DNA of 45,362 nt from positions 1 to 45,362 of the forward strand of contig JAFUAD010000005.1 of the NCBI GenBank assembly GCA_017460835.1, given 5' to 3'. Positions 22,541 to 34,754 of this stretch are shown here, piece by piece. The notes under the pieces were generated by a model. The model worked only from the letters and a program-made list of their open reading frames with translations. It searched no databases and had not been told where the DNA came from. The DNA comes from Oscillospiraceae bacterium. GTDB taxonomy: Bacteria > Bacillota > Clostridia > Oscillospirales > Ruminococcaceae. Made by a program: the position numbers and the translations under genes. Each line of letters opens with the position of its first letter. Position 1 is the first letter of the stretch.

Positions 22541-25309
22541 TTGAAACAGGAAGCAGAATTCAGGGCGCGCGCAAAAGCGATCGTGCAGCAGATGACGGCT
22601 GAGGAGAAGCTCGGGCTGCTGACCACGCACCAGAAGCCCTCGGAGCGGCTCGGCCTGCCGGAGTTTTATATCGGAACCGAGGTCGCAAGAGGATTTGTCG
22701 GGCGGGAGCCGGAGCGGTTCTCGACCGTTCTGCCGCAGCCGATCGGCATTGCCGCAACCTTTGATGCGCCGCTCGCACAGAAGCTCGGGGAGATCGCCGG
22801 GGACGAGTGCCGCGCCTATTTCAATGAATCGCACAGAGGCGGGCTCTGCGTCTGGGGCCCGACTGTCGATATGGAGCGCGACCCGCGCTGGGGGCGCACC
22901 GAGGAGGCATACGGCGAGGACGTCTGCCTTGCCGGAACGCTCAGCGCCGCACTGACCCGCGGCATGGCGGGATACGATGAAACCTACATGAAGACCGTCC
23001 CGACGCTCAAGCACTTCTGCGCAAATAACACCGAAAACACCCGCGCACACGGCGATTCCTTCCTGCCGCCGCGCCTGAAATATGAGTATTACTATGCCGC
23101 ATTTATGCCCGCGGTCTGCGAGGGCGGTGCGCGGAGCGTCATGGCGGCATACAACGCGGTCAACGGCGTCCCGGCCATGTGCAATCCCGATCTGCGGGAT
23201 ATCCTGCATGCAAAATGGGGGCTGTGGTTTGCCGTCACGGACGGCGGCGCATATACGCAGCTACTTTCGGCGCACCGCTACTGCGAAAGCTATGCAGAGG
23301 CGCTTGCGGAGGCGATCAGAGCGGGCTGCGAGGTCATGACGGACAATGACGAGGTGACCGCAGAGGCGGGGCGAAAGGCGCTCAGAGAGGGACTGCTGAA
23401 GGAGGAGGAGCTCGACGACGCACTTGAGCACGTCATCTACACGCGGCTGCGGCTCGGCATGCTCGCGCAGGACTGCCCCTATGACAGCATCACGAAGGAG
23501 ATCGTGGACAGTGAGGCGGCGAGAGCGGTCAACCGGCGCGCCGCCGAGGAGCAGATCGTTCTGCTGAAAAATGACGGGCTGCTGCCGATCGGCATAGAAG
23601 CGGCGCCGCAGAAGATCGCGGTCGTCGGCGCCCTCGCGGACGAGAACCTCATGGACTGGTATACCGGCCATTTCCGCGGCGCTATTTCGGTGCTGGAGGG
23701 CATCCGGAGGGAGTTCCCGGAAGCGCAGGTCAGCACGGATTCTCTCTGGGATCTGGTCGCGGTTCGGGCGGCAAACGGGAAATATCTCTCGGCGCATGAG
23801 GACGGCAGCGTCACCGCCGATGCAGAGCAGATCGGCGAAAATGAGCTCTTTGAGCTGCAAAGCTGGGGCGAAAACTGGAACAATTTTTATTCGAGGAAAT
23901 ATGCGCGGTATATCCGCCTGAACGACGACTGCTCGCTCCGGCTGCATAACCGCAGAATCTATGACTGGTTCACAAAGGAGACCTTCCGGCTGATTCCCGC
24001 AACGGAAGGCACCGTGCTGGAGGAGCCGCTGTTCGGCAGGCGGCTGCGGGCTTCGGATGACGGGCGCATCACCGCCGCAGAGCAGCACACCGTTCTGCCC
24101 GAAGCCTGCTTCCGGATCGAGGTGCAGAGCAGCGGCGCAGAGCGTGCAAGGGCGATCGCAGCGTCGCATGACCTTGTGCTGTACTGCGTCGGCAACCACC
24201 CGGTTCAGGTCGCGAAGGAGTGCTATGACCGAAAGACGCTGCGGCTCAATGTTCAGGAGGGCATGGCGGCGGTTCTGCATGCGGAAAATCCCGATACTGC
24301 GATGATTCTGATATCCAGCTACCCTTATGCGGTCTGTGAGGAGCAGGCTATGCTCCCGGCGATTCTTTACTCGACACATGCCGGCGCGCATCTCGGCGAG
24401 GCGGTCGCGGGCGCGGTCTCAGGAAGGGTCAACCCCGCGGGCAGGCTCCCGATGACATGGTACCGCTCCGAAGCCGATCTGCCCGATCTCGAAAACTACG
24501 ACATCGAATCGGCCGGCACGACCTATCTCTATTTCCGCGGAAAGGCGCTGTATCCCTTCGGCTACGGGCTCTCCTATTCCGCATTCCGGTATCTTGATCT
24601 GAAGGTTCGGGCGAATGCAGAGGGCGGCGCCGATGCGGAGATCACGCTGCAAAATACCTCAGAGCGCAGCGGCGAGGAGGTTGTGCAGGTTTATTATCAT
24701 ATGCCGCATTCTGCGGTTTCCCGCCCGATCAGAAAGCTCTGCGGCTTTGCCCGCGTGCAGCTCGGCGCCGGCGAGACCAAAACGGTCTCTATCCGGATTC
24801 CCGCCTATCTCCTGCAATATTTCGATGTCCGCGCAGAGGCGTTTCGCACCGAGCCGGGCGAATACTGCTTCCTTGCGGGCGGCTCCTCCGATGCGCTGCC
24901 GCTCTGCTGCACGCTCACCCTTGCAGGGCAGCCGGAGACAGTCCGCAGGGAGCGCTTCGAGGCGCAGTATTATGACCGCGCGGCCGGCGTGAGAATCGGG
25001 TATGCCCGCGCGCTGCATCAGCATTATGTGAAAACGGCAGGCTGGAGCGCGACGCTGATCTATGAGCAGGTGCCGCTGAAGGGTAAAAGGCTGCTGACAA
25101 TCCGTGCGGCGGCGATGACCCAGCCCGGAACGGTCACGGCGGAGCTCTGCGGGGAGACATACAGCATTTCCGTTTTGCCGGGCGACGGCGCCTCGGACTT
25201 CCGCACATATCGGGTTCCCCTGCCCGAGGGGCTCCCGGAGACCGGTACCCTGCGCCTGACCATGCCCGGCGGCATGCAGCTCCTCGATCTCTGCGTTTCG
25301 GCAGAGTGA
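22541..25309 (+). CDS. GH3 beta-glycosidase with a trefoil-like insertion
   Basis: A 922-residue cytoplasmic-looking family 3 glycoside hydrolase (no signal peptide, no dockerin), likely acting on imported oligosaccharides as a beta-glucosidase or beta-xylosidase. The nucleophile is the Asp in FAVTDGGAY (about residue 234); KHFCANNTE is also conserved. A segment at about residues 400-525 (VRAANGKYLSAHEDGSV, then a second copy-like RRLRASDDGRITA) resembles fascin/trefoil-type beta repeats placed inside the second domain. A fibronectin III-like part and a C-terminal beta domain follow. I prefer the TTG at 22541, 9 nt after GGGAGG, over the TTG at 22535, which is only 3 nt away. Confidence 0.9.
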   Translation: MKQEAEFRARAKAIVQQMTAEEKLGLLTTHQKPSERLGLPEFYIGTEVARGFVGREPERFSTVLPQPIGIAATFDAPLAQKLGEIAGDECRAYFNESHRGGLCVWGPTVDMERDPRWGRTEEAYGEDVCLAGTLSAALTRGMAGYDETYMKTVPTLKHFCANNTENTRAHGDSFLPPRLKYEYYYAAFMPAVCEGGARSVMAAYNAVNGVPAMCNPDLRDILHAKWGLWFAVTDGGAYTQLLSAHRYCESYAEALAEAIRAGCEVMTDNDEVTAEAGRKALREGLLKEEELDDALEHVIYTRLRLGMLAQDCPYDSITKEIVDSEAARAVNRRAAEEQIVLLKNDGLLPIGIEAAPQKIAVVGALADENLMDWYTGHFRGAISVLEGIRREFPEAQVSTDSLWDLVAVRAANGKYLSAHEDGSVTADAEQIGENELFELQSWGENWNNFYSRKYARYIRLNDDCSLRLHNRRIYDWFTKETFRLIPATEGTVLEEPLFGRRLRASDDGRITAAEQHTVLPEACFRIEVQSSGAERARAIAASHDLVLYCVGNHPVQVAKECYDRKTLRLNVQEGMAAVLHAENPDTAMILISSYPYAVCEEQAMLPAILYSTHAGAHLGEAVAGAVSGRVNPAGRLPMTWYRSEADLPDLENYDIESAGTTYLYFRGKALYPFGYGLSYSAFRYLDLKVRANAEGGADAEITLQNTSERSGEEVVQVYYHMPHSAVSRPIRKLCGFARVQLGAGETKTVSIRIPAYLLQYFDVRAEAFRTEPGEYCFLAGGSSDALPLCCTLTLAGQPETVRRERFEAQYYDRAAGVRIGYARALHQHYVKTAGWSATLIYEQVPLKGKRLLTIRAAAMTQPGTVTAELCGETYSISVLPGDGASDFRTYRVPLPEGLPETGTLRLTMPGGMQLLDLCVSAE

Positions 25310-25323
25310 CCCCACACTAACCG

Positions 25324-25358
25324 AACAGCCCCCGGTAACTCATGCCGGGGGCTGTTTT
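25324..25358. terminator. bidirectional terminator between GH3 and the kinase
   Basis: AACAGCCCCCGG / CCGGGGGCTGTT with T-runs on either strand, placed between two convergent stops. Confidence 0.85.
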
Positions 25359-25365
25359 GGGTTGT

Positions 25366-28300
25366 TTATGCGGCATCGGCTGAAATGTCCCCGTCGGTGC
25401 AATGGACGGTGGAGGTGGAGGTGGAGGCATATTTAAGCCAGTTACTACCCTTCTTGACTGCTATCCATTGCGCAATGGTGCCATTATATTGAATGTCATT
25501 CAAGTTGGAACAGTCGTAAAATGCATAATCTCCGATAGAAGTCACGCTGTTCGGAATTATGATGGATTTTAAGCTGGTACAATATTCAAATGCTCCATCC
25601 CCGATAGAAGTCACACTGTTCGGAATTGTGACGAAGGTTAGGTTTTCGCAACCTTCAAATACACCATTGCCGATAGATGCCACGCTATTCGGAATTTCGA
25701 TGGAGGTTAAGCCGGTGCAGTAATAAAATGCATCCCACCCTATTGAAGTCACACTGTCCGGAATTGTGATAGAGGTTAAGCTATTGCAATATTTAAATGC
25801 ATACCACCCGATATCAGTCACGCTTTCCGGAATTGTGACGGAGGTTAAGCTTTCGCAAGACTCAAATACAGCATACTCGATAGAAGTGACGCCGTTCGGA
25901 ATTGTAATGGAGGTTAAGCTTTGGCAATATCTAAATGCACAACTGCCGATAGATGTCACACTGTCTGGAATTGTGATGGAGGTTAGGTTTTCGCAACCTT
26001 CAAATACACATTTGCCGATAGATGTCACGCTGTTCGGAATTGTGACGGAGGTTAAGCTATTGCAATCAATAAATGCACAATATCCGATAGAAGTCGGTTT
26101 ACCGGAAAAAACCACTTTTTTGATATTATTTCTTGAATTATACCACGGATAACTATCAGGATTATATTCCGGCATCTCCCCATCCCCGTAAATAGTCAGT
26201 GTTCCATTGCTCAGCGTCCAAGAAAAGCCGCTACCCATATCGCCGTGCACAATATCATCAACCACCGGCGCTGTCGGGGTAGTGGCGTGCATTGTTGTAC
26301 GATCGGTTGATATGGTTGAAGACGAGGAAGCCGCCGACTGCGTTGAACCGGTTGTTGATGTGGTCGTTTTCGTCGTAGAAGCTGTTGTTTTAGTGGTTGT
26401 CGTTGTCGGCGCAGTCGATTGCTTTGAAACGACCTTGTTTATCGCAACATAAATCGTCACCGCGCTGCCCTCATCGGCATAATACGCCGTATTTGCCTCC
26501 GGGCTCTGCCGGAAAACCGTACCGTCCGCGTAGAGATCATTCTCCGCATACGCAATGTTGTACCGGATGCCGGCGTTGTTCAGGCTCTGCGCCGCTGCCG
26601 CCTCGGTCATGCCGGTGCAGTTCGGCACATAGCGCACCTCGCGCCCCGCACTCACCGTTAGCGTCAGCGTCGCGCCCTGCTTCACCGTCGTGCCCGGCTC
26701 AATATCCTGCGAAAGAACCGTGCCTTCCGGCTCCGCGCTGTATCGGTACTCGGTCTGCACATAAATCCCCGCGCTGCTCAGCTCCGCCTGCGCCTGATCG
26801 AGCATTTTTGAAACAAAATTGCCCACTTCTACATCAACCGTCTCGTCAATGTTTTCGAGACCCAGCGACACCGTCAGAACGATCACCGTGCCCTTGTCAT
26901 AGATGCCCGGCTCAACACTCTGGCTGATGATGCAGCCCTTCGGCGTATTGGAATATTCCTCTTTTGTCTCGACTTCAAAGCCCTGCTCCGTCAGCTCCGC
27001 GATAACAGTCTGCGCATCCCGGCCTTGCAGATTTTTCAGCTCCAGCTGCATTTTTCCGCGGCTCATCACCATCTCGACCGTCGTGTCAATATGGACTTTC
27101 CTGCCTGCTCGCTGGTACTGATTGACGATCATCCCCGCCGGAATTGTGTCCGAATAGTCTCCGTCCACGATCAGCGGGATCAGCTTCGCGGCCTCGACCT
27201 TTTCCTTTGCCTCTGTATCGGTCAATCCGATGACATTCGGGATTTTCGTCTCGTCGCTGCCGAGCACTTGTTTGAACACTGCGACCGGGTTCCCGGCGGT
27301 GAGATACCCATACAGCGACACGCCGATCACCAGCACAAGCAGCCCCAGCACGCTTGCGAGCAGTGCCTTGTGCCATGTCTTCCAGCTCCCGTTATCAACG
27401 TGTTTATGTGTATTTCGCATACGGCTCGTTTTCGCGCCCGCGAGCTGTTCCCGGAATTCCTTTGCACTCTGCGTGCGGTTGTCCTTATAGATATTGAGCG
27501 CATTCATGATCGCGGTTTCCGTGTTTTTGTCGATTTTCGCGCCCTTTTTCGAGGGCGGCTGCACATCGTCCTTCACGATCCGCTCCATCGCGTCGGTCGG
27601 AGTGACCGATGTGATCATTTTGTATAATGTTGCGGCGCAGGCGTACACATCCGACCACGGCCCTTGTTCGCCGTGCGTCCGGTACTGCTCCTCCGGGGCA
27701 TAGCCCGGCTTCAGGATGACCGAGAGGCTCTTGCTTTTCCCCGTTCCCGCATAGCGTGCCGCACCGAAATCCAGCAGCTTGATTCGGCCGTCCTTAGTCA
27801 GGAAAATGTTGTCCGGAGATATATCCCGATGCACGATGCCTTTCTCATGAACCGCCGCCAACGCATCCAGCACCGGCAGCATGATGCCCACAGCTTCATC
27901 TGCCGGAATCTTTTTCTCTCTTTCGAGACGCTGCTTCAGCGTTTCGCCCTCGAGATACTCCATGACGATATAGCTCGTGCCGTTTTCGTCGAATTCGTCG
28001 CGGATTGTAACAATTCCCGGCTCGGATGCAAATTTGGCAAGGCGGCGCGCTTCATCCAGAAACTTGTCGCGTCCCTGCGCGAACATCTCGGTTTTCTCGC
28101 CGGAGTAGACGGTCACGCTGAGGTCGCCGGGCATGCGCGTGGCGAGCTCGCCGGGAAGATACTCCTTGATCGCGACCTTGATTCCGAACTGCGTGTCGAA
28201 GCCTAAATAGGTCACGCCGAAGCCGCCGTACCCGAGCACGCGCCCGATCAGATAATGCCGCAGCATCGTGCCCGGCGCGATATGATACGGCTCCTTCGCC

Positions 28301-28383
28301 GGCGTCCCAGCCGCGTACCCGCAGTACGGGCAATATTGCGTTCCGGCTGCGGGATTCATGCAGCCCAGGCAGAGGTTTCTCAT
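25366..28383 (-). CDS. PASTA Ser/Thr kinase with a leucine-rich-repeat tail
   Basis: A 1005-residue transmembrane kinase. Order: zinc-ribbon-like start (CLGC...CPYC, residues 5-21); kinase domain (about 40-315) with GYGGFGVTYLG, K73, HRDISPDN (D187) and DFG (D205); membrane segment (about 339-361); four PASTA repeats (about 370-650); a Thr-rich linker; and an ectodomain of eight full plus one partial 23-residue BspA-type leucine-rich repeats (about 740-970). PASTA kinases bind wall fragments and control growth; adding an LRR module is unusual. GGAGTTGACATC before the ATG supports 28383; a longer frame starts at 28410. The LRR part is visibly AT-richer than the kinase. Confidence 0.9.
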   Translation of the reverse strand: MRNLCLGCMNPAAGTQYCPYCGYAAGTPAKEPYHIAPGTMLRHYLIGRVLGYGGFGVTYLGFDTQFGIKVAIKEYLPGELATRMPGDLSVTVYSGEKTEMFAQGRDKFLDEARRLAKFASEPGIVTIRDEFDENGTSYIVMEYLEGETLKQRLEREKKIPADEAVGIMLPVLDALAAVHEKGIVHRDISPDNIFLTKDGRIKLLDFGAARYAGTGKSKSLSVILKPGYAPEEQYRTHGEQGPWSDVYACAATLYKMITSVTPTDAMERIVKDDVQPPSKKGAKIDKNTETAIMNALNIYKDNRTQSAKEFREQLAGAKTSRMRNTHKHVDNGSWKTWHKALLASVLGLLVLVIGVSLYGYLTAGNPVAVFKQVLGSDETKIPNVIGLTDTEAKEKVEAAKLIPLIVDGDYSDTIPAGMIVNQYQRAGRKVHIDTTVEMVMSRGKMQLELKNLQGRDAQTVIAELTEQGFEVETKEEYSNTPKGCIISQSVEPGIYDKGTVIVLTVSLGLENIDETVDVEVGNFVSKMLDQAQAELSSAGIYVQTEYRYSAEPEGTVLSQDIEPGTTVKQGATLTLTVSAGREVRYVPNCTGMTEAAAAQSLNNAGIRYNIAYAENDLYADGTVFRQSPEANTAYYADEGSAVTIYVAINKVVSKQSTAPTTTTTKTTASTTKTTTSTTGSTQSAASSSSTISTDRTTMHATTPTAPVVDDIVHGDMGSGFSWTLSNGTLTIYGDGEMPEYNPDSYPWYNSRNNIKKVVFSGKPTSIGYCAFIDCNSLTSVTIPNSVTSIGKCVFEGCENLTSITIPDSVTSIGSCAFRYCQSLTSITIPNGVTSIEYAVFESCESLTSVTIPESVTDIGWYAFKYCNSLTSITIPDSVTSIGWDAFYYCTGLTSIEIPNSVASIGNGVFEGCENLTFVTIPNSVTSIGDGAFEYCTSLKSIIIPNSVTSIGDYAFYDCSNLNDIQYNGTIAQWIAVKKGSNWLKYASTSTSTVHCTDGDISADAA
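25500..26100 (-). repeat. 69-nt tandem repeats coding the LRR array
   Basis: About nine units of 69 nt, each coding for a 23-residue repeat of the form SIGxxAFxxCxSLTSITIPxSV with a Cys at a fixed position. The units are alike in DNA as well as protein, which suggests growth by unequal recombination. Confidence 0.85.
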
Positions 28384-28432
28384 GATGTCAACTCCATTCC
28401 GGTTTCCCATTTTTTATCTGATGAAAAAGGTG

Positions 28433-28972
28433 CTAATCCGGTTCACCGTTTGTACTTGATATCTCCGGGGCATTTTCTTGCTGTTTTCTTCTCCTGCTTT
28501 GTTTTGTTTCATTTTCATCCGATTGATTCATTTCGGTTGAGTCTATCGTTATTTCGCTTGTAATACTTTCACCTTCGTGCGAATCTGTTTCCCCTTCGTT
28601 GCCGCCGCCGCTTGGATTCTCATTTCCGCTTGGATTCTCATTTCCGCTTGAATTATCATCTGTATTCGGCTCTTGCGTTGTGGTCGTTCTAGTTGTAGAA
28701 AATGTTGTGGCCGTTGTGGAGGTGGACGAAGTAGAGCTGGTTGAAGCAGTCAACTGCGTTGTAACGGTTGTCAATGTTGTCGTTTTCGTCGTAGATGCTG
28801 TTGTTTTGGCGGCTGTTGTTGTCGGCACAGTGGATTGTGTTGATACTGTCTTGTTTACTGCAATATAAATCGTCACCGTGCGGTTCTCATCAGCATAAAA
28901 CGCCGTATTCGCCTCCGGGGTCTGCCGGAAAACCGTGCCGTCCGCGTAGAGATTATTCGTCGTATACTCTGA
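28433..28972 (-). pseudogene. truncated tail of a second PASTA kinase
   Basis: The reading frame (…YADGTVFRQTPEANTAFYAD…VTIYIAVNKTV) matches the end of the fourth PASTA repeat and the Thr-rich linker of the intact kinase just downstream, with close DNA similarity between 28866-28966 and 26451-26550. It then ends in a Ser/Thr/Glu-rich tail (QEPNTDDNSSGNENPSGG) with no LRR and stops at 28433. The kinase domain, membrane segment and three PASTA repeats are missing: the frame breaks at about 28972, where recombinase sequence begins. It lies directly upstream of the intact gene, so it is the remains of a tandem duplicate whose 5' part was lost. Confidence 0.8.
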
Positions 28973-29104
28973 TTTAAAAAGGGTAACGAGCCTGTCATAC
29001 AGTATTTATCCTGTGCTCAATTGGAAAGACTTTTAAACAAGCCCGATAGTAACAATTACTACGGCTTTAAGGATTTGCTTTTGTTGACAGTTACCGCCGT
29101 GTGA
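28973..29104 (+). pseudogene. tyrosine recombinase fragment
   Basis: The frame reads KKGNEPVIQYLSCAQLERLL, then NKPDSNNYYGFKDLLLLTVTA, then a stop. This is the opening of the catalytic domain of a Tn-type tyrosine integrase (pattern YLs.eql..Ll..pd....g.rD..lL.l...tG.R). It breaks off exactly where the first catalytic Arg motif (TGLR) should come, and serine recombinase sequence follows in another frame. It cannot be active. No start codon or upstream half is present. Confidence 0.65.
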
Positions 29105-29640
29105 TCTGGCAGTGTAATCATAAGTTCAAGAACGGAGAGAAGTGTAAAACGCCGCATCTGTATGAGGACGATATAAAAAAGCGGTTCATCGAGGTGTGCA
29201 ACAGGATAGTAAGCGACAAGGAGGATTTTCTGCTCTCCTGTCAGCAGATCGTGGAAATGCTCTCCAACACCACAGCACTGGACAGAAAAATCGAAGCACA
29301 GTATATCTACCTGAACGGGCTGACAGTTTCGATGCAGGAGTTTATCAAGGAAAACGCAATGAAACCGCAGGACGAGGACTTCTACAAAAAGAAAATGGCA
29401 GAGTACAATGCTCAGAAGGCTGAAGCTGAAAGGGTTCTGCACGACCTTCAGGGCAAGAGGGCGGCTCGACTCTCACGCAAGGAACTGCTCGAAGGACTGA
29501 TTCGGACGATGAGTCGAGAGGGTATTGTGACCGACACCTTTGACGGAAAGCTCTGGCTTCTGCTTGTGGAAAAAGCAACTGTGGGAACTGACGGTAAGCT
29601 GACCTTCACGCTACGGAACGGCATGGAGATTGAAGTGTAA
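29089..29640 (+). pseudogene. large serine recombinase, C-terminal remnant
   Basis: About 180 residues survive: YRRVIWQCNHKFKNGEKC (the recombinase zinc-ribbon with its Cys residues), TPHLYEDDIKKRFIEV, a coiled-coil stretch with Gln/Lys/Glu-rich heptads (about 29250-29470) and a C-terminal beta end. This is the typical tail of the large serine recombinases of Clostridial conjugative transposons. The catalytic resolvase domain with its nucleophile Ser and most of the recombinase domain are absent, so it is not functional. It is AT-richer than its surroundings. Confidence 0.8.
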
Positions 29641-29650
29641 TTACTATTTC

Positions 29651-29716
29651 AAAGGGGCTGTGGATACCAATGTGATACCTCTCACACTGGCTCATCCACA
29701 GCCCCTATTTTTTTAT
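29651..29716 (+). repeat. 66-nt hairpin repeat, left copy
   Basis: A long imperfect hairpin: AGGGGCTGTGGAT pairs with ATCCACAGCCCCT, with an inner CCAxTGTGA / TCACAxTGG stem, ended by ATTTTTTTA. It follows the recombinase stop by 10 nt and reads as an intrinsic terminator. The right copy at 32435-32500 differs at two positions only. Confidence 0.9.
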
Positions 29717-29722
29717 TAGGCG

Positions 29723-29751
29723 TTGACTTTTGTCCTGATATATGATAGAAT
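29723..29751 (+). promoter_or_regulatory. promoter of the imported dockerin gene
   Basis: TTGACT, a 17-nt spacer and TAGAAT, starting 7 nt after the left hairpin repeat. Confidence 0.65.
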
Positions 29752-29828
29752 GTAGTAAAATAGGATTGTTGTATCCTGTTGTAGCACGTAAATATTTTAC
29801 GCTCATTTTTTACGAAGGAGGTATGGTT

Positions 29829-32417
29829 ATGAAACTATTTACATCTAAGCTAAGTGCTGTGCTTTTGAGTGCGTGCATGGTTTTGCCTGTACTTTCAAAC
29901 GGCGCAACTGTCAGCTGCAACAACACTGCTATTGCTGCTGAAACAGCAGATGCCGCTATCAAGTTCAATAATGAAGATCAGTTCTTCGTCTATGTCGGCA
30001 CTTATGGAGGGAGCATTCCACAGTTCCGTTATCTGTATCCAACATCAGACGGAAGCTATAATGCGGACAAGGTTATATGGGAAGAGGCACCGACAGGCCT
30101 TGCCTATGGAGACATTTTCGTTGCTGATGGCGATGTTCCTATGACACAAGTGTATCCTGCTGCCGATGATCCGGCTAATGCTCATGTTTACTATTATACG
30201 CTCGATGAAGGCACAGAACTGAGTAAGGCTGGTAACTGTACTGACATCATGGAAAAGAAAGACCTGAGTGTCACGAGCAAGACCTATGACGGCTCATCGC
30301 ATTGGAGCGTTCGCTATATGGATGCTGCCGGCGAAAAGTATTATTATGGCGTGAGCAGATATGCTTCTGATCTAATCGTTGATCCTCTTGACTGCGAGGT
30401 CGGTGATATTTACACCTATGCGCTTTATAATGATTATATGGTAGTGCCGCTTGAGAAGAAAGAAAACGCCACAGCTAACGAACTGTATTTCAATACTCAG
30501 TACGGCTATGTACCTGTTGAAATTGGACTTTATACTGGTGCTGAGCTTGTAGGATATGATGATGGCAAATTCTACGAAGTTGGTGATTCTCCTATCGAAT
30601 TTACCATCGACGATGAAAAGATTGCAAAGCTTGGTCCTGCACAGGGAATAGGTGTAAATGTTTTGGGAGTATCCGTAGGGGAAACCATGCTCAACGCAAA
30701 GACTCCAGACGGAAGAACAGCGTCTATCAGGGTTGTTGTAAAAGAAGCTCCTTCCACTTCCACAACAGCAGTGTGGAATCATGAAACCACAACAACTACC
30801 ACAACCGCATCCATCAGCTATGGAATCGGTGTGAGCCAGTTACCGGATAAGACTGTCTATCAAATCGGAGAAGAACTCGATCTGACAGGTTTACGGCTGA
30901 ACGGCAGTTATACCGAAGGTGATCTTGTTGCCTGCATCATGGACGAAGACTATCGAAACGTACCGATCACAGTCGATGCCTCTGAGTTTGACAATACGAA
31001 AGCTGGAACATATACTATTTATATATTGTACGGTAATGCGAAGGATTCGTTCACGGTGGATGTTGTTGATGATCTCCCTGCAGGTGCAACAAGAATAACG
31101 CTGTACGACAAGGATACAGGCGAGCTGATTCCGAATGAGGTGCTGGAAGCTAATCCCTTCAAGTTCCATGCAGATATTGTTTATACGCCTAATCTGTTTT
31201 CCACTGTCGGAGCAACAACTGGTATAGCAGACTATACCGTTACCACGAATGAAGCCATTCTGGATGAATGCTATCTCTGTCCTGAATTATCCTCGCTTGC
31301 TATGGCATACAAGAAAGCTGATACATTTAATATCACTACAGAAGAGCAGCCTGAAATCACATATTATGATAACGGCTCGATGGATATTGTATTCAAGCTG
31401 AAATTTACGCCCACAGGAGATGTCAACGATGACGGCGAATTCAATGTTGCCGATGTCGTACTGCTTCAGAAATGGTTGCTTGCCGTACCGGATACTCATC
31501 TCGCAAACTGGAAAGCTGTTGACTTTTGCAATGACAATAGGCTGAATGTATTTGATCTGTGTCTGATGAAGCGAGAGCTTATCCGCACTACTGTTACAAC
31601 CTATGTTGAGCCAGATCATCGTAGTACCTATGGTGCCCCTCTATATGTAGTGAAAGACGGTCTGAACCTGTATCTCGGTCCTGACGGAAGCTATGCGTCC
31701 ATAGCCACACTACCCGAAGGAACACAGCTCCATGAGTTGGGATACAATGATAATAATTATAACTGGTTGTTTACAGAGTACAATGGACAGTATGGCTGGA
31801 TCAGAACATATGAAGATGATAATAAAACACGTACTGTTGAGTATCTTGCTCAGCCCGATAAACCTGTTATCTACCTCTATCCCGAAGAAGAGACCGATGT
31901 CCATGTGGAACTGGAACTGACAGAAGCCGACCTCTCCACAACCTACCCGAAATATAATAACGGCTGGGATGTGGTTGCATATCCGGACGGCACGCTCTTG
32001 AACAAGGCAGACGGCACGCATCATAAATACCTTTTCTGGGATGCTGTGAACTGCCGCACACGCTTTGATTTCTCCAAAGGCTTCTGTGTGGCAGGCAGCG
32101 ATACAGAGAGTTTCCTCAAAGAGAAACTCACATACATGGGCTTGACCGAGCAGGAGATGAATGAGTTTATCGTATACTGGCTGCCGAGAATGGAGCATAA
32201 TGCGTATAACCTTATTTCCTTCCAAGGCGATGCCTATACGAACTCTGCGAAGCTGACAATCACACCGACACCTGATAGCGAGTGCCGCATCTTCATGGCG
32301 TATGTTCCGCTTGATGCCGTTGTGGACATCGAGCCACAAGTGCTTTCAACATTTGAAAGAAAGGGCTTCACAGTCGTTGAATGGGGCGGAGCTGAAATCA
32401 AGACAGGAAATAACTGA
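29829..32417 (+). CDS. secreted dockerin protein with Ig-like and SH3-like domains
   Basis: An 862-residue secreted protein: signal peptide (about 1-30); a novel N-terminal domain (about 35-250); a Big2-like domain (about 250-305); a Ser/Thr linker; an Ig-like domain (about 331-415, QLPDKTVYQIGEELDLTG); a dockerin in the middle (about 529-590, GDVNDDGEFNVADVVLLQKW); an SH3-like domain (about 604-665); and a C-terminal domain opening KPVIYLYPEEETDV that occurs widely in Firmicute surface proteins without known function. GAAGGAGG supports the ATG at 29829. Base composition is clearly AT-richer than the surrounding genes, and identical hairpins bracket it. Likely horizontally acquired; enzymatic activity is not apparent. 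Confidence 0.85.
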   Translation: MKLFTSKLSAVLLSACMVLPVLSNGATVSCNNTAIAAETADAAIKFNNEDQFFVYVGTYGGSIPQFRYLYPTSDGSYNADKVIWEEAPTGLAYGDIFVADGDVPMTQVYPAADDPANAHVYYYTLDEGTELSKAGNCTDIMEKKDLSVTSKTYDGSSHWSVRYMDAAGEKYYYGVSRYASDLIVDPLDCEVGDIYTYALYNDYMVVPLEKKENATANELYFNTQYGYVPVEIGLYTGAELVGYDDGKFYEVGDSPIEFTIDDEKIAKLGPAQGIGVNVLGVSVGETMLNAKTPDGRTASIRVVVKEAPSTSTTAVWNHETTTTTTTASISYGIGVSQLPDKTVYQIGEELDLTGLRLNGSYTEGDLVACIMDEDYRNVPITVDASEFDNTKAGTYTIYILYGNAKDSFTVDVVDDLPAGATRITLYDKDTGELIPNEVLEANPFKFHADIVYTPNLFSTVGATTGIADYTVTTNEAILDECYLCPELSSLAMAYKKADTFNITTEEQPEITYYDNGSMDIVFKLKFTPTGDVNDDGEFNVADVVLLQKWLLAVPDTHLANWKAVDFCNDNRLNVFDLCLMKRELIRTTVTTYVEPDHRSTYGAPLYVVKDGLNLYLGPDGSYASIATLPEGTQLHELGYNDNNYNWLFTEYNGQYGWIRTYEDDNKTRTVEYLAQPDKPVIYLYPEEETDVHVELELTEADLSTTYPKYNNGWDVVAYPDGTLLNKADGTHHKYLFWDAVNCRTRFDFSKGFCVAGSDTESFLKEKLTYMGLTEQEMNEFIVYWLPRMEHNAYNLISFQGDAYTNSAKLTITPTPDSECRIFMAYVPLDAVVDIEPQVLSTFERKGFTVVEWGGAEIKTGNN

Positions 32418-32434
32418 ATATCTATAGCATAACA

Positions 32435-32500
32435 AAGGGGCTGTGGATACCAATGTGAAATCTCTCACACTGGCTCATCCACAGCCCCTATTTTTTTATG
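32435..32500 (+). repeat. 66-nt hairpin repeat, right copy
   Basis: The same 66-nt hairpin as at 29651-29716, 64 of 66 positions identical and in the same orientation, 17 nt after the dockerin gene's stop. It works as an intrinsic terminator by shape. Confidence 0.9.
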
Positions 32501-32519
32501 CCTATTTACAGCCTTTTCC

Positions 32520-32601
32520 GAGTTTCGTTACAAAAATCAACGATAACTCCGAGTAAAATGCACCCTTTTTCGAGTTTCGTTACAAAAATCAACGGTAACT
32601 T
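32520..32601 (+). repeat. pair of 30-nt direct repeats
   Basis: Two copies (32520-32549 and 32572-32601) that begin CGAGTTTCGTTACAAAAATC and differ at one base, 22 nt apart. A TTGACTTTTG segment at about 32613 matches the start of the promoter at 29723. No gene lies here. The repeats may be remnants of a lost cassette or an attachment region. Confidence 0.75.
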
Positions 32602-32784
32602 GGGCAATCGTTGACTTTTGAGGTTAATCTACTCATTTTTCCCCATTTTGACTACTTTTAGGAGCGTATAGCCATCACCCTCAGAAGCAATCGTTTCCGA
32701 TTGCCTTAAAAATCAGCGTATTATCTGCATTTAGGCAGAATAATGCACCCCTACTTCAATTGTATCAAAATAGGGGTGCTAATA

Positions 32785-32860
<76 letters not shown>

Positions 32861-33075: not shown

Positions 33076-33155
33076 ATAATTGCCTTATTTGTATAGAGGG
33101 GGAAACTATACAATTATAAACAGAGAAACAGGTCTTAAACATGGAGGGGTATCTT

Positions 33156-34754
33156 ATGAAAAGAAAATTTATGGGAATTGTGTGTGCCTCCGTTCTGGCA
33201 TTCGCATCTGTTCCCGCAGCACCGGCTTCCGCTGCTTCAGTCGGTGAGAAGCTCAGTGTCAGCAGCAACGGTCAGCAGCAGCAAAAGGGCAACTGTGACG
33301 GCTACAGCTATGAGGTCTGGATCGACAACACCGGCGGCAGCGGCTCGATGACGCTCGGCAGCGGCGCAACTTTCAAGACCGAATGGAGCGCATCGGGCTC
33401 CAGAGGAAACTTCCTTGCTCGCCGCGGCAAAATGTATGACACCGGCCAGAAGGCTACCAGCTACGACCCGATCGTCATGAACTACGCAGCCGATTATTCC
33501 GCGAGCGGAGGAAACTCCAGACTTTGCGTTTACGGCTGGTTCAGAAACCCTCTGGTTGAATACTATATCATTGAGGACTGGATGAACTGGAACCCGTCAA
33601 AGGACGGAAGCAAGCAGGACAGCCAGATGGTCACGATCGACGGTGCACAGTATGAGATCTTCTGGCTGTGGCACGAGGGCCCGACCATTGAAAGCAGCTC
33701 CGGCAGATTCAAGCAGTACTTCAGTGTCCGTCAGAATACGCGCAAATCCGGTTCGATTACCGTTACCGATCACTTCAAGGCATGGGCAAATGCCGGCTGG
33801 GATATCGGCAGCCTTTATGAGGTCGCACTGAACGTGGAAGGCTGGGAAAGCAGCGGCTCCGCGAATGTCACGATGCTCACGATGGGCAGCGACCCGATCC
33901 CGGATCCCGATCCGGATCCGGATCCCGATCCTGAAGTCGAGTTCACTGCCCCGACCGGCAGCGGTACCGGCGTGACCGACAACTTCGAGGGCACCGGCAC
34001 CGACTGGACGACCAGAGGCGAAAACCTGAAATACGGCTTTGCAAAGGATTTCGTCCACGGCGGCAAGCAGTCTCTGTATGTGACAAACCGCTCGCAGTCC
34101 TGGAACGGCTTTACAGTCGCAAGCGATGAGCTGAAGGCAGGCTCGGAATACTCCATCTCCGCGTTTGCGGGCTACAACAGCAGCACCTATTCGACCAGCA
34201 GCTTCACGCTCGGTTTGCAGTATGATCTGGACGGCTCGCCCAACTACGACAATCTGGTGGATGCGGATGCAACGTCCGGCAAGTGGACAGAGCTCGCGAC
34301 CGATTTCACGATCCCGTCCGGCGCAACGAATATTTCGCTGTATGTGCAGACCGCTTACAGTGAGACCGCAACCGCGAAGGATAAGATCAGCTTCTATCTG
34401 GATGATGTTGTGCTGACGAACAAGAGCGCTGCCAGCTCCACCACCACAACCTCCACAACTACAACCACAACCACAACTACGACTACAACCTCGACCTCAT
34501 CCTCCACAACGACCACCACGACCTCCACATCCTCTGAGCCGATCATCACCGTGACGCTGAAGGGCGACGTAGATGACAACGGTGTTGTCAATGTTCTGGA
34601 TGCTGTGATGCTCGCAAGAGTTGCAGTTGAGGACACCTCGACCGGTATCACCGCGCAGGGCAAGGCAAACGGCGAGCTGGACGGCAAGGCCGGCCTCTCG
34701 AACGCCGATCTGAGCATCCTGCTGAAGGCACTGGCAAGCAACGCTCCGCTTTAA
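33156..34754 (+). CDS. cellulosomal GH11 endo-1,4-beta-xylanase (GH11-CBM22-dockerin)
   Basis: A 532-residue secreted xylanase. Order: signal peptide (about 1-26); GH11 jelly-roll (about 30-240) with nucleophile E135 in NPLVEYYI and acid/base E228 in VEGWESSGSANV; an Asp-Pro linker (about 246-262); a CBM22 (about 268-424, NRSQSWNG); a Thr/Ser linker of nearly 40 residues; and a type I dockerin (about 468-532, GDVDDNGVVNVLDAVMLAR). The dockerin's second calcium loop (GELDGKAGLSNADL) is degenerate. The product cuts internal beta-1,4 bonds of xylan and docks to a scaffoldin cohesin. GGAGGGG precedes the ATG at 33156; an in-frame ATG at 33141 is less likely. Confidence 0.96.
   Translation: MKRKFMGIVCASVLAFASVPAAPASAASVGEKLSVSSNGQQQQKGNCDGYSYEVWIDNTGGSGSMTLGSGATFKTEWSASGSRGNFLARRGKMYDTGQKATSYDPIVMNYAADYSASGGNSRLCVYGWFRNPLVEYYIIEDWMNWNPSKDGSKQDSQMVTIDGAQYEIFWLWHEGPTIESSSGRFKQYFSVRQNTRKSGSITVTDHFKAWANAGWDIGSLYEVALNVEGWESSGSANVTMLTMGSDPIPDPDPDPDPDPEVEFTAPTGSGTGVTDNFEGTGTDWTTRGENLKYGFAKDFVHGGKQSLYVTNRSQSWNGFTVASDELKAGSEYSISAFAGYNSSTYSTSSFTLGLQYDLDGSPNYDNLVDADATSGKWTELATDFTIPSGATNISLYVQTAYSETATAKDKISFYLDDVVLTNKSAASSTTTTSTTTTTTTTTTTTSTSSSTTTTTTSTSSEPIITVTLKGDVDDNGVVNVLDAVMLARVAVEDTSTGITAQGKANGELDGKAGLSNADLSILLKALASNAPL

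Follow-up and report, generated by a model that had tools for sequence, protein, structure and literature searches.

A dockerin gene between two copies of an integrase terminator: a probable moron in a decayed prophage of a Ruminococcaceae bacterium

The draft genome of Oscillospiraceae bacterium GCA_017460835.1 (Ruminococcaceae; 103 contigs) carries a dockerin gene placed between two almost identical hairpins, directly behind the remnant of a serine recombinase, and the question raised by this locus is what kind of element brings together such a gene and such surroundings. The window, i.e. the whole stretch of DNA analysed, comprises positions 1-45,362 of contig JAFUAD010000005.1 (forward strand, 45,362 nt). 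An initial annotation had interpreted the arrangement as a mobile promoter-gene-terminator unit. A promoter-like site and a terminator within mobile DNA are indeed found, but the carrier is a prophage and not an autonomous hairpin cassette: the dockerin gene is probably a moron (lysogenic-conversion gene) in a decayed temperate prophage with two tandem large serine recombinases, here called rec1 and rec2. The features of the locus are the following:

29086-29640, + strand: C-terminal remnant of rec2, a large serine recombinase (L037 rec2, phrog_95)
29650-29716, + strand: terminator T1, left hairpin repeat (repeat and folding; place and left flank as those of the L037 rec2 terminator)
29721-29732, - strand: right-end motif CAAAAGTCAACG directly after T1, a possible right-end remnant
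29723-29751, + strand: sigma-70-like promoter TTGACT-17-TAGAAT (10/12, TG before the second hexamer)
29829-32417, + strand: dockerin gene, 862 aa (Big_3, Dockerin_1, weak SH3_3)
32433-32499, + strand: terminator T2, right hairpin repeat (repeat and folding; right flank as in L037)
32500-32787, + strand: phage right end, 288 nt, ending in TGTATCAAAATAGGGGTGCTAATATGG at the tRNA 3' end
32785-32860, - strand: tRNA-Ala(CGC), the integration site (Rfam tRNA; empty counterpart in another genome of the genus, G028)

The terminator pair and the integrase remnant

The two direct repeats are 67 nt long, identical at 65 of 67 positions (97%) and separated by 2783 nt from start to start; the pair and its two differing positions had been recognised before, with sizes of 66 and 2784 nt that are corrected here. 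Folding of the + strand yields -35.4 kcal/mol for T1 and -35.6 kcal/mol for T2, as compared with shuffle means of -14.4 and -13.9 (z of -7.5 and -8.2), and each hairpin has a T-run on its 3' side. Neither is listed by a simple terminator scan limited to loops of 3-8 and disallowing bulges. Beyond T1 and T2, no copy of the hairpin was found in the own draft genome, where the remaining hits were those of the two palindromes to their own reverse strands and two short ones (14-17 nt, E > 1). The other 29 genomes of the genus gave no match to the hairpin at E <= 1e-3, and no hairpin with exact arms occurs in the viral contigs. A 77% related hairpin comes after rec2 in one of those 29 genomes (G019, locus L096), and the relatives of this hairpin type vary in stem and loop yet stay hairpins.

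When genome contigs were scanned with the hairpin arms, a single relevant locus emerged, L037, in a Ruminococcus metagenome-assembled genome, which is the closest hairpin relative; three further stretches, from Thiobacillus, were set aside by organism name only. With two copies in the own genome and one relevant locus among the genome contigs, a dispersed mobile repeat was ruled out. The order in L037 is that of two intact tandem serine recombinases (rec1-rec2), the same hairpin directly after them, a right end of ~290 nt and a different tRNA-Ala, those ~290 nt matching the part of the window that extends from T2 to the tRNA. There is one hairpin, and no gene lies between rec2 and the right end, so that the single copy without a gene proposed earlier as a check on the cassette does exist in a relative.

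The recombinase remnant of the window has a serine recombinase family match restricted to the C-terminal part, the catalytic domain being missing. It is 88% identical to L037 rec2 over residues 339-522 (89% over 341-522), matches the phrog_95 integrase (E 1.2e-13) and shows a weak zinc-ribbon match under the Pfam cut-off. Its stop codon ends at 29640, 9 nt ahead of T1, and the adjacency noted previously is thus right, apart from the distance given as 10 nt. Since L037 has the same hairpin directly after rec2, and the window remnant is a rec2 C-terminus, the left hairpin is the rec2 terminator; likewise, because L037 shows the same order, the right hairpin and its flank represent the native terminator-to-right-end arrangement. 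The repeated hairpin is therefore the terminator of the integrase gene rec2, duplicated around the dockerin gene, and identity at 65 of 67 positions is not a matter of chance. A tyrosine-recombinase reading of ~43 codons left of the rec2 remnant was dropped, as these have neither a Pfam nor a PHROG match.

GC content is 0.43-0.50 across ~28.25-33.25 kb, mostly 0.54-0.66 in the neighbouring intervals, and again low (0.42-0.49) at 25.25-26.5 kb. The dockerin gene had been singled out as AT-richer, which it is, but the low-GC stretch covers the phage remnant too. On the left, the locus is preceded by a protein kinase gene with PASTA and BspA-type LRR domains (25366-28410, - strand) and by a truncated fragment (28433-28990, - strand) that matches PASTA weakly, has a tail rich in Thr and is open up to a junction near 28990.

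Phage relatives and the tRNA-Ala site

T2 and the right end are together ~80% identical to their L037 counterpart, and the motif that closes the right end is present in 9 of 396 genomes of the family. The motif CAAAARTCAACG has four matches in the window, against 0.02 expected, three of them in the right end and one directly after T1. A promoter-like segment after the right hairpin had been taken as a sign that further cassettes once followed: the segment TTGACTTTTG exists, but it belongs to the motif CAAAARTCAACG, and the supposed site of lost cassettes is the phage right end at tRNA-Ala. The only known structured RNA recognised is this tRNA, two other matches being far under their gathering scores. 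In G028, the only one of the 29 other genomes of the genus with a listed match joining the tRNA and the GH11 region, the site is empty: a region ~66% identical to the GH11 locus of the window carries tRNA-Ala(CGC) with other sequence directly after its CCA end, whereas in the window the phage right end begins there. The GH11 xylanase gene itself (33141-34754) also encodes a CBM_4_9 domain, and its dockerin match is below the curated cut-off (17.7 vs 22.9 bits).

No structural phage genes are left in the window, and L037 begins at its contig start; the phage identity of both consequently derives from L119, L094 and a locus in another genus of the family (G034, described below). L119 and L120, two IMG/VR viral contigs, have rec2 and the right end in common with the window element. 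Upstream of orfA-rec1-rec2, L119 encodes family matches to a distal tail protein, a minor tail protein, a holin and an endolysin, and both of its recombinases match the phage integrase family phrog_95; the upstream genes of L094 resemble those of L119, as judged by the protein starts. The search with rec2 gave confirmed relatives in 314 viral stretches, 80 of them retained, as well as in 153 phage records, which include that of Ruminococcus phage NatCom_23091. In this phage, which belongs to the tandem-serine-recombinase phages of Clostridia, rec2 is 61.7% identical over 99% and an endolysin lies upstream, as in the relatives described here, but the stretch examined has no annotated dockerin gene; its record is labelled Ca. 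Heliusvirales, an order-level label.

The right ends of L101, L104, L119 and L126 continue, as seen by eye, into tRNA-Met-like sequence, stopping after the same anticodon-region bases (TTATGA), and the flanks beyond differ, as if the crossover took place in the anticodon loop. In another species (G024:C12, L099, 5932-9647), a right end and a degenerate hairpin lie at tRNA-Ala(CGC), ahead of a different dockerin gene that encodes a transglutaminase-like domain and reads away from the tRNA.

The slot between integrase and right end and its genes

The place occupied by the dockerin gene, inside the prophage between the rec2 remnant and the right end, is the one defined by rec2 and the right end in L037 and L119. 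This slot is without a gene-like ORF in L037, L119, L120, L121, L122 and L133 (longest mechanical ORFs of 76-123 aa) and is filled by different genes in other relatives: a 311-aa protein with no Pfam match in L094, also seen in viral contig L131, a BspA-type LRR protein in L095 and L104, and, in L137, an ATPase_2/DUF234 protein with a further match to a PADLOC candidate defence family. The slots of L094, L095 and L104 are closed by the same type of right end as that of the window; no right end was recognised within the 2.1 kb of L137. In each of these four loci the slot gene is followed by a terminator, promoter-like sequences upstream were read by eye, and the equivalents of T1 and T2 are unlike each other. 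In L126, in whose 17 kb no rec2 was found, the L094-type terminator and right end stand behind an alpha/beta hydrolase gene. Defence-like matches near the slot or the right end were seen in L187 (9090-10559, Cas13-ApeA/PDC-S58), L137 (5787-7253, PDC-S27) and L101 (2924-4174, McrBC by Pfam).

As regards the dockerin protein of the window, its N-terminus resembles a signal peptide by eye and its Dockerin_1 match is above the curated Pfam cut-off (31.0 vs 22.9 bits). T2 is a strong hairpin, and the promoter-like site (29723-29751) is within the shuffled expectation, shuffles of the stretch giving 0.8 such sites on average, so that it is not significant alone. The search of the genus places its nearest relative within the same genome, a paralogue on contig C45 (L041), with amino acid identities of 92% over residues 529-860, 83% over 1-214 and 89% over 328-416, and DNA identity of 85-90% in three blocks; for this reason, an origin of the gene from a host dockerin family is likely on sequence grounds. 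The viral contigs yielded no confirmed relative of the dockerin protein, and the phage records gave only two partial matches. The paralogue lies behind a second dockerin-type gene and an ORF resembling, by eye, a radical SAM protein. A serine-recombinase fragment beside it, a by-eye impression, did not hold up in tblastn searches with the rec1 and rec2 proteins; of the 12 loci searched, L045 and L046 have distant recombinases (24-28%), and L041 has none.

A genome of another genus of the family (G034, locus L239) has the same layout, made up of a different hairpin and a different dockerin gene, and to this extent the expectation that hairpins would bracket other genes is borne out, though not by a dispersed repeat. 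The order there is rec2, hairpin, a promoter-like site (11/12; 9 such sites in the stretch vs 6.9 expected), an 878-aa protein with a C-terminal dockerin, a second hairpin copy and the right end. The second hairpin is preceded by the last codons of rec2, its stem differs from that of the first by paired changes, and tail, holin and endolysin-like genes, identified by resemblance, lie ahead of rec1 on the contig. Viral contig L255 (2.2 kb), with a rec2 93% identical to that of G034, is the comparable form, having a single hairpin without a dockerin gene; it includes an interruption resembling an IS by eye. Near full-length homologues of the G034 protein (59-68%) were found in 5 of the 6 genomes of the window's genus that were searched, no further near full-length match occurs within G034, and of 11 genomes of its own genus, two gave the protein, G034 itself and G422 (65%). 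Such a distribution fits a transfer between genera, without proving it. Further along the same contig (G034:C32), a third rec2 tail with its terminator comes after ~6.5 kb of other genes, and then a second right end together with a fragment of tRNA-Met. The two terminator and right-end modules 6.5 kb apart (L302/L303, 20873-28102) form an array of elements, with a serine-recombinase-like ORF, by resemblance, between them (24946-25971).

The frequency of such pairs was estimated from same-strand repeats of the first 170 nt after rec2 within 6 kb. Of the 67 distinct rec2 loci that have 1500 nt or more of downstream sequence, 4 show a terminator pair (window, L239, L187 and L253); with the limit lowered to 500 nt, the count is 4 of 89. 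Seven more loci, six with at least 1500 nt, added L109 and L107, giving 6 of 73, these two being biased cases because they were examined after being seen as control matches. Every copy folds into a hairpin, a weak one in the case of L107. Other genes, as a control, gave 6 of 380 at E <= 1e-7 and 11 of 380 at E <= 1e-3; the L107 and L109 terminators themselves account for two of the six at the stricter limit. Fisher's test gives p = 0.006 for 6/73 vs 6/380, p = 0.007 without the window (5/72 vs 4/378) and p = 0.07 without the window, L107 and L109 (3/66 vs 4/378); a p of 9e-5, for which control matches had been counted post hoc only if a hairpin by eye, was discarded. The enrichment of terminator pairs at rec2 loci is thus suggestive only.

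Origin of the arrangement and its meaning

Morons are described in PMC6469090 as horizontally acquired and independently transcribed genes. The dockerin gene resembles those of phages in being an extra gene with its own promoter-like site and terminator, by an attachment end, present or absent among relatives; it departs from them in that it encodes a dockerin protein, is closed by a copy of the integrase terminator and lies in a decayed carrier. No dockerin moron was reported in the literature searched, covered mostly by the beginnings of abstracts, and the terms recombinase, integrase and dockerin are absent from the main text of PMC9226167.

According to the moron reading, the phage would have integrated at tRNA-Ala and later decayed until the rec2 end, the cargo and the right end remained, the dockerin gene occupying the slot that separates the integrase operon from the attachment-site end. 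T1 would end integrase transcription, the cargo would be transcribed from its own promoter, and T2, the second copy of the integrase terminator, would stop this transcription before the phage end. The gene, probably from a host dockerin family, may have entered by recombination between related phages or tandem prophages, the recombining parts being the recurring module of rec2 tail, terminator and right end. Exchange between related elements is favoured because T2 of L109 is closer to the rec2 terminator of L108, another element of its own genome, than to its own T1; tandem prophages as intermediates are favoured because of the right-end motif directly after T1, as well as the G034 array.

The same evidence bears on other explanations. 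A terminator-bracketed cassette, gained or lost as a promoter-gene-terminator unit by crossover between like terminators, perhaps as a circle, could explain the pairs around cargo at six rec2 loci, with varied hairpins and cargo, the single-hairpin forms L037 and L255, and the better fit of L109 T2 to the L108 terminator. A simple excisable cassette is conceivable, as a near-identical stretch of 67 bp may be long enough for deletion by homologous recombination. However, the pairs concern just 6 of 73 loci (p = 0.07 in the unbiased comparison), T1 and T2 are unlike in L094, L095, L104 and L137, which also limits the earlier proposal of movement at the hairpins, otherwise in keeping with the single-hairpin forms, and neither an excised circle nor gain or loss within a strain was seen, the empty forms being other species or phages that perhaps never bore the gene; this explanation is considered improbable. 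The integron reading, with which the locus shares a gene followed by a folding repeat and, in G034, serial units, is unsupported: the genes here carry their own promoter-like sites, and no attC core (GTTRRRY) was matched in the left hairpin in a search covering 28141-31226.

Tandem prophages at the tRNA followed by deletions, T1 coming from one element, T2 and the right end from a second and the gene being left between, would account for the right-end motif after T1, for the last rec2 codons before T2 in L239 and for the additional rec2 tail, terminator and right end 6.5 kb on in G034:C32. Prophage accretion at tRNA sites shares these repeated terminator and right-end modules, but the window holds just one complete right end, with nothing of another between T1 and the gene save a 12-nt motif, and two deletions would be needed, each time leaving one gene with a promoter-like site and terminator; such an origin is improbable as well. 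An ordinary chromosomal dockerin gene lying by chance between two terminators would agree with the dockerin-protein matches in all 30 genomes of the genus, many by the dockerin module alone, but T1 follows rec2 and T2 is joined to the right end, hence the gene is inside the phage module, and 65 of 67 identical positions are beyond chance, so that this is very improbable indeed.

On a wider scale, the integrase terminator and right end might constitute a general docking module for serine-integrase phages of fibre-degrading clostridia, which would collect and exchange promoter-gene-terminator units, dockerin genes included, by recombination at repeated integrase terminators, build cassette-like arrays by the attachment site and move cellulosome parts between genera, a generalisation that we regard as unlikely. 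As to the moron reading, the recurrence of the layout with a different dockerin gene in another genus suggests that such phages can carry fibre-degradation genes and, judging from its domains, a secreted dockerin protein encoded by a prophage would provide the lysogen with an additional component of its surface or cellulosome. The repeated integrase terminator is a signature by which these slots can be searched for, and it suggests a testable route of moron acquisition. If phages do carry dockerin morons, some of the cellulosome components that vary among rumen and gut relatives of Ruminococcus may reside on phages and be able to pass from one genus to another.
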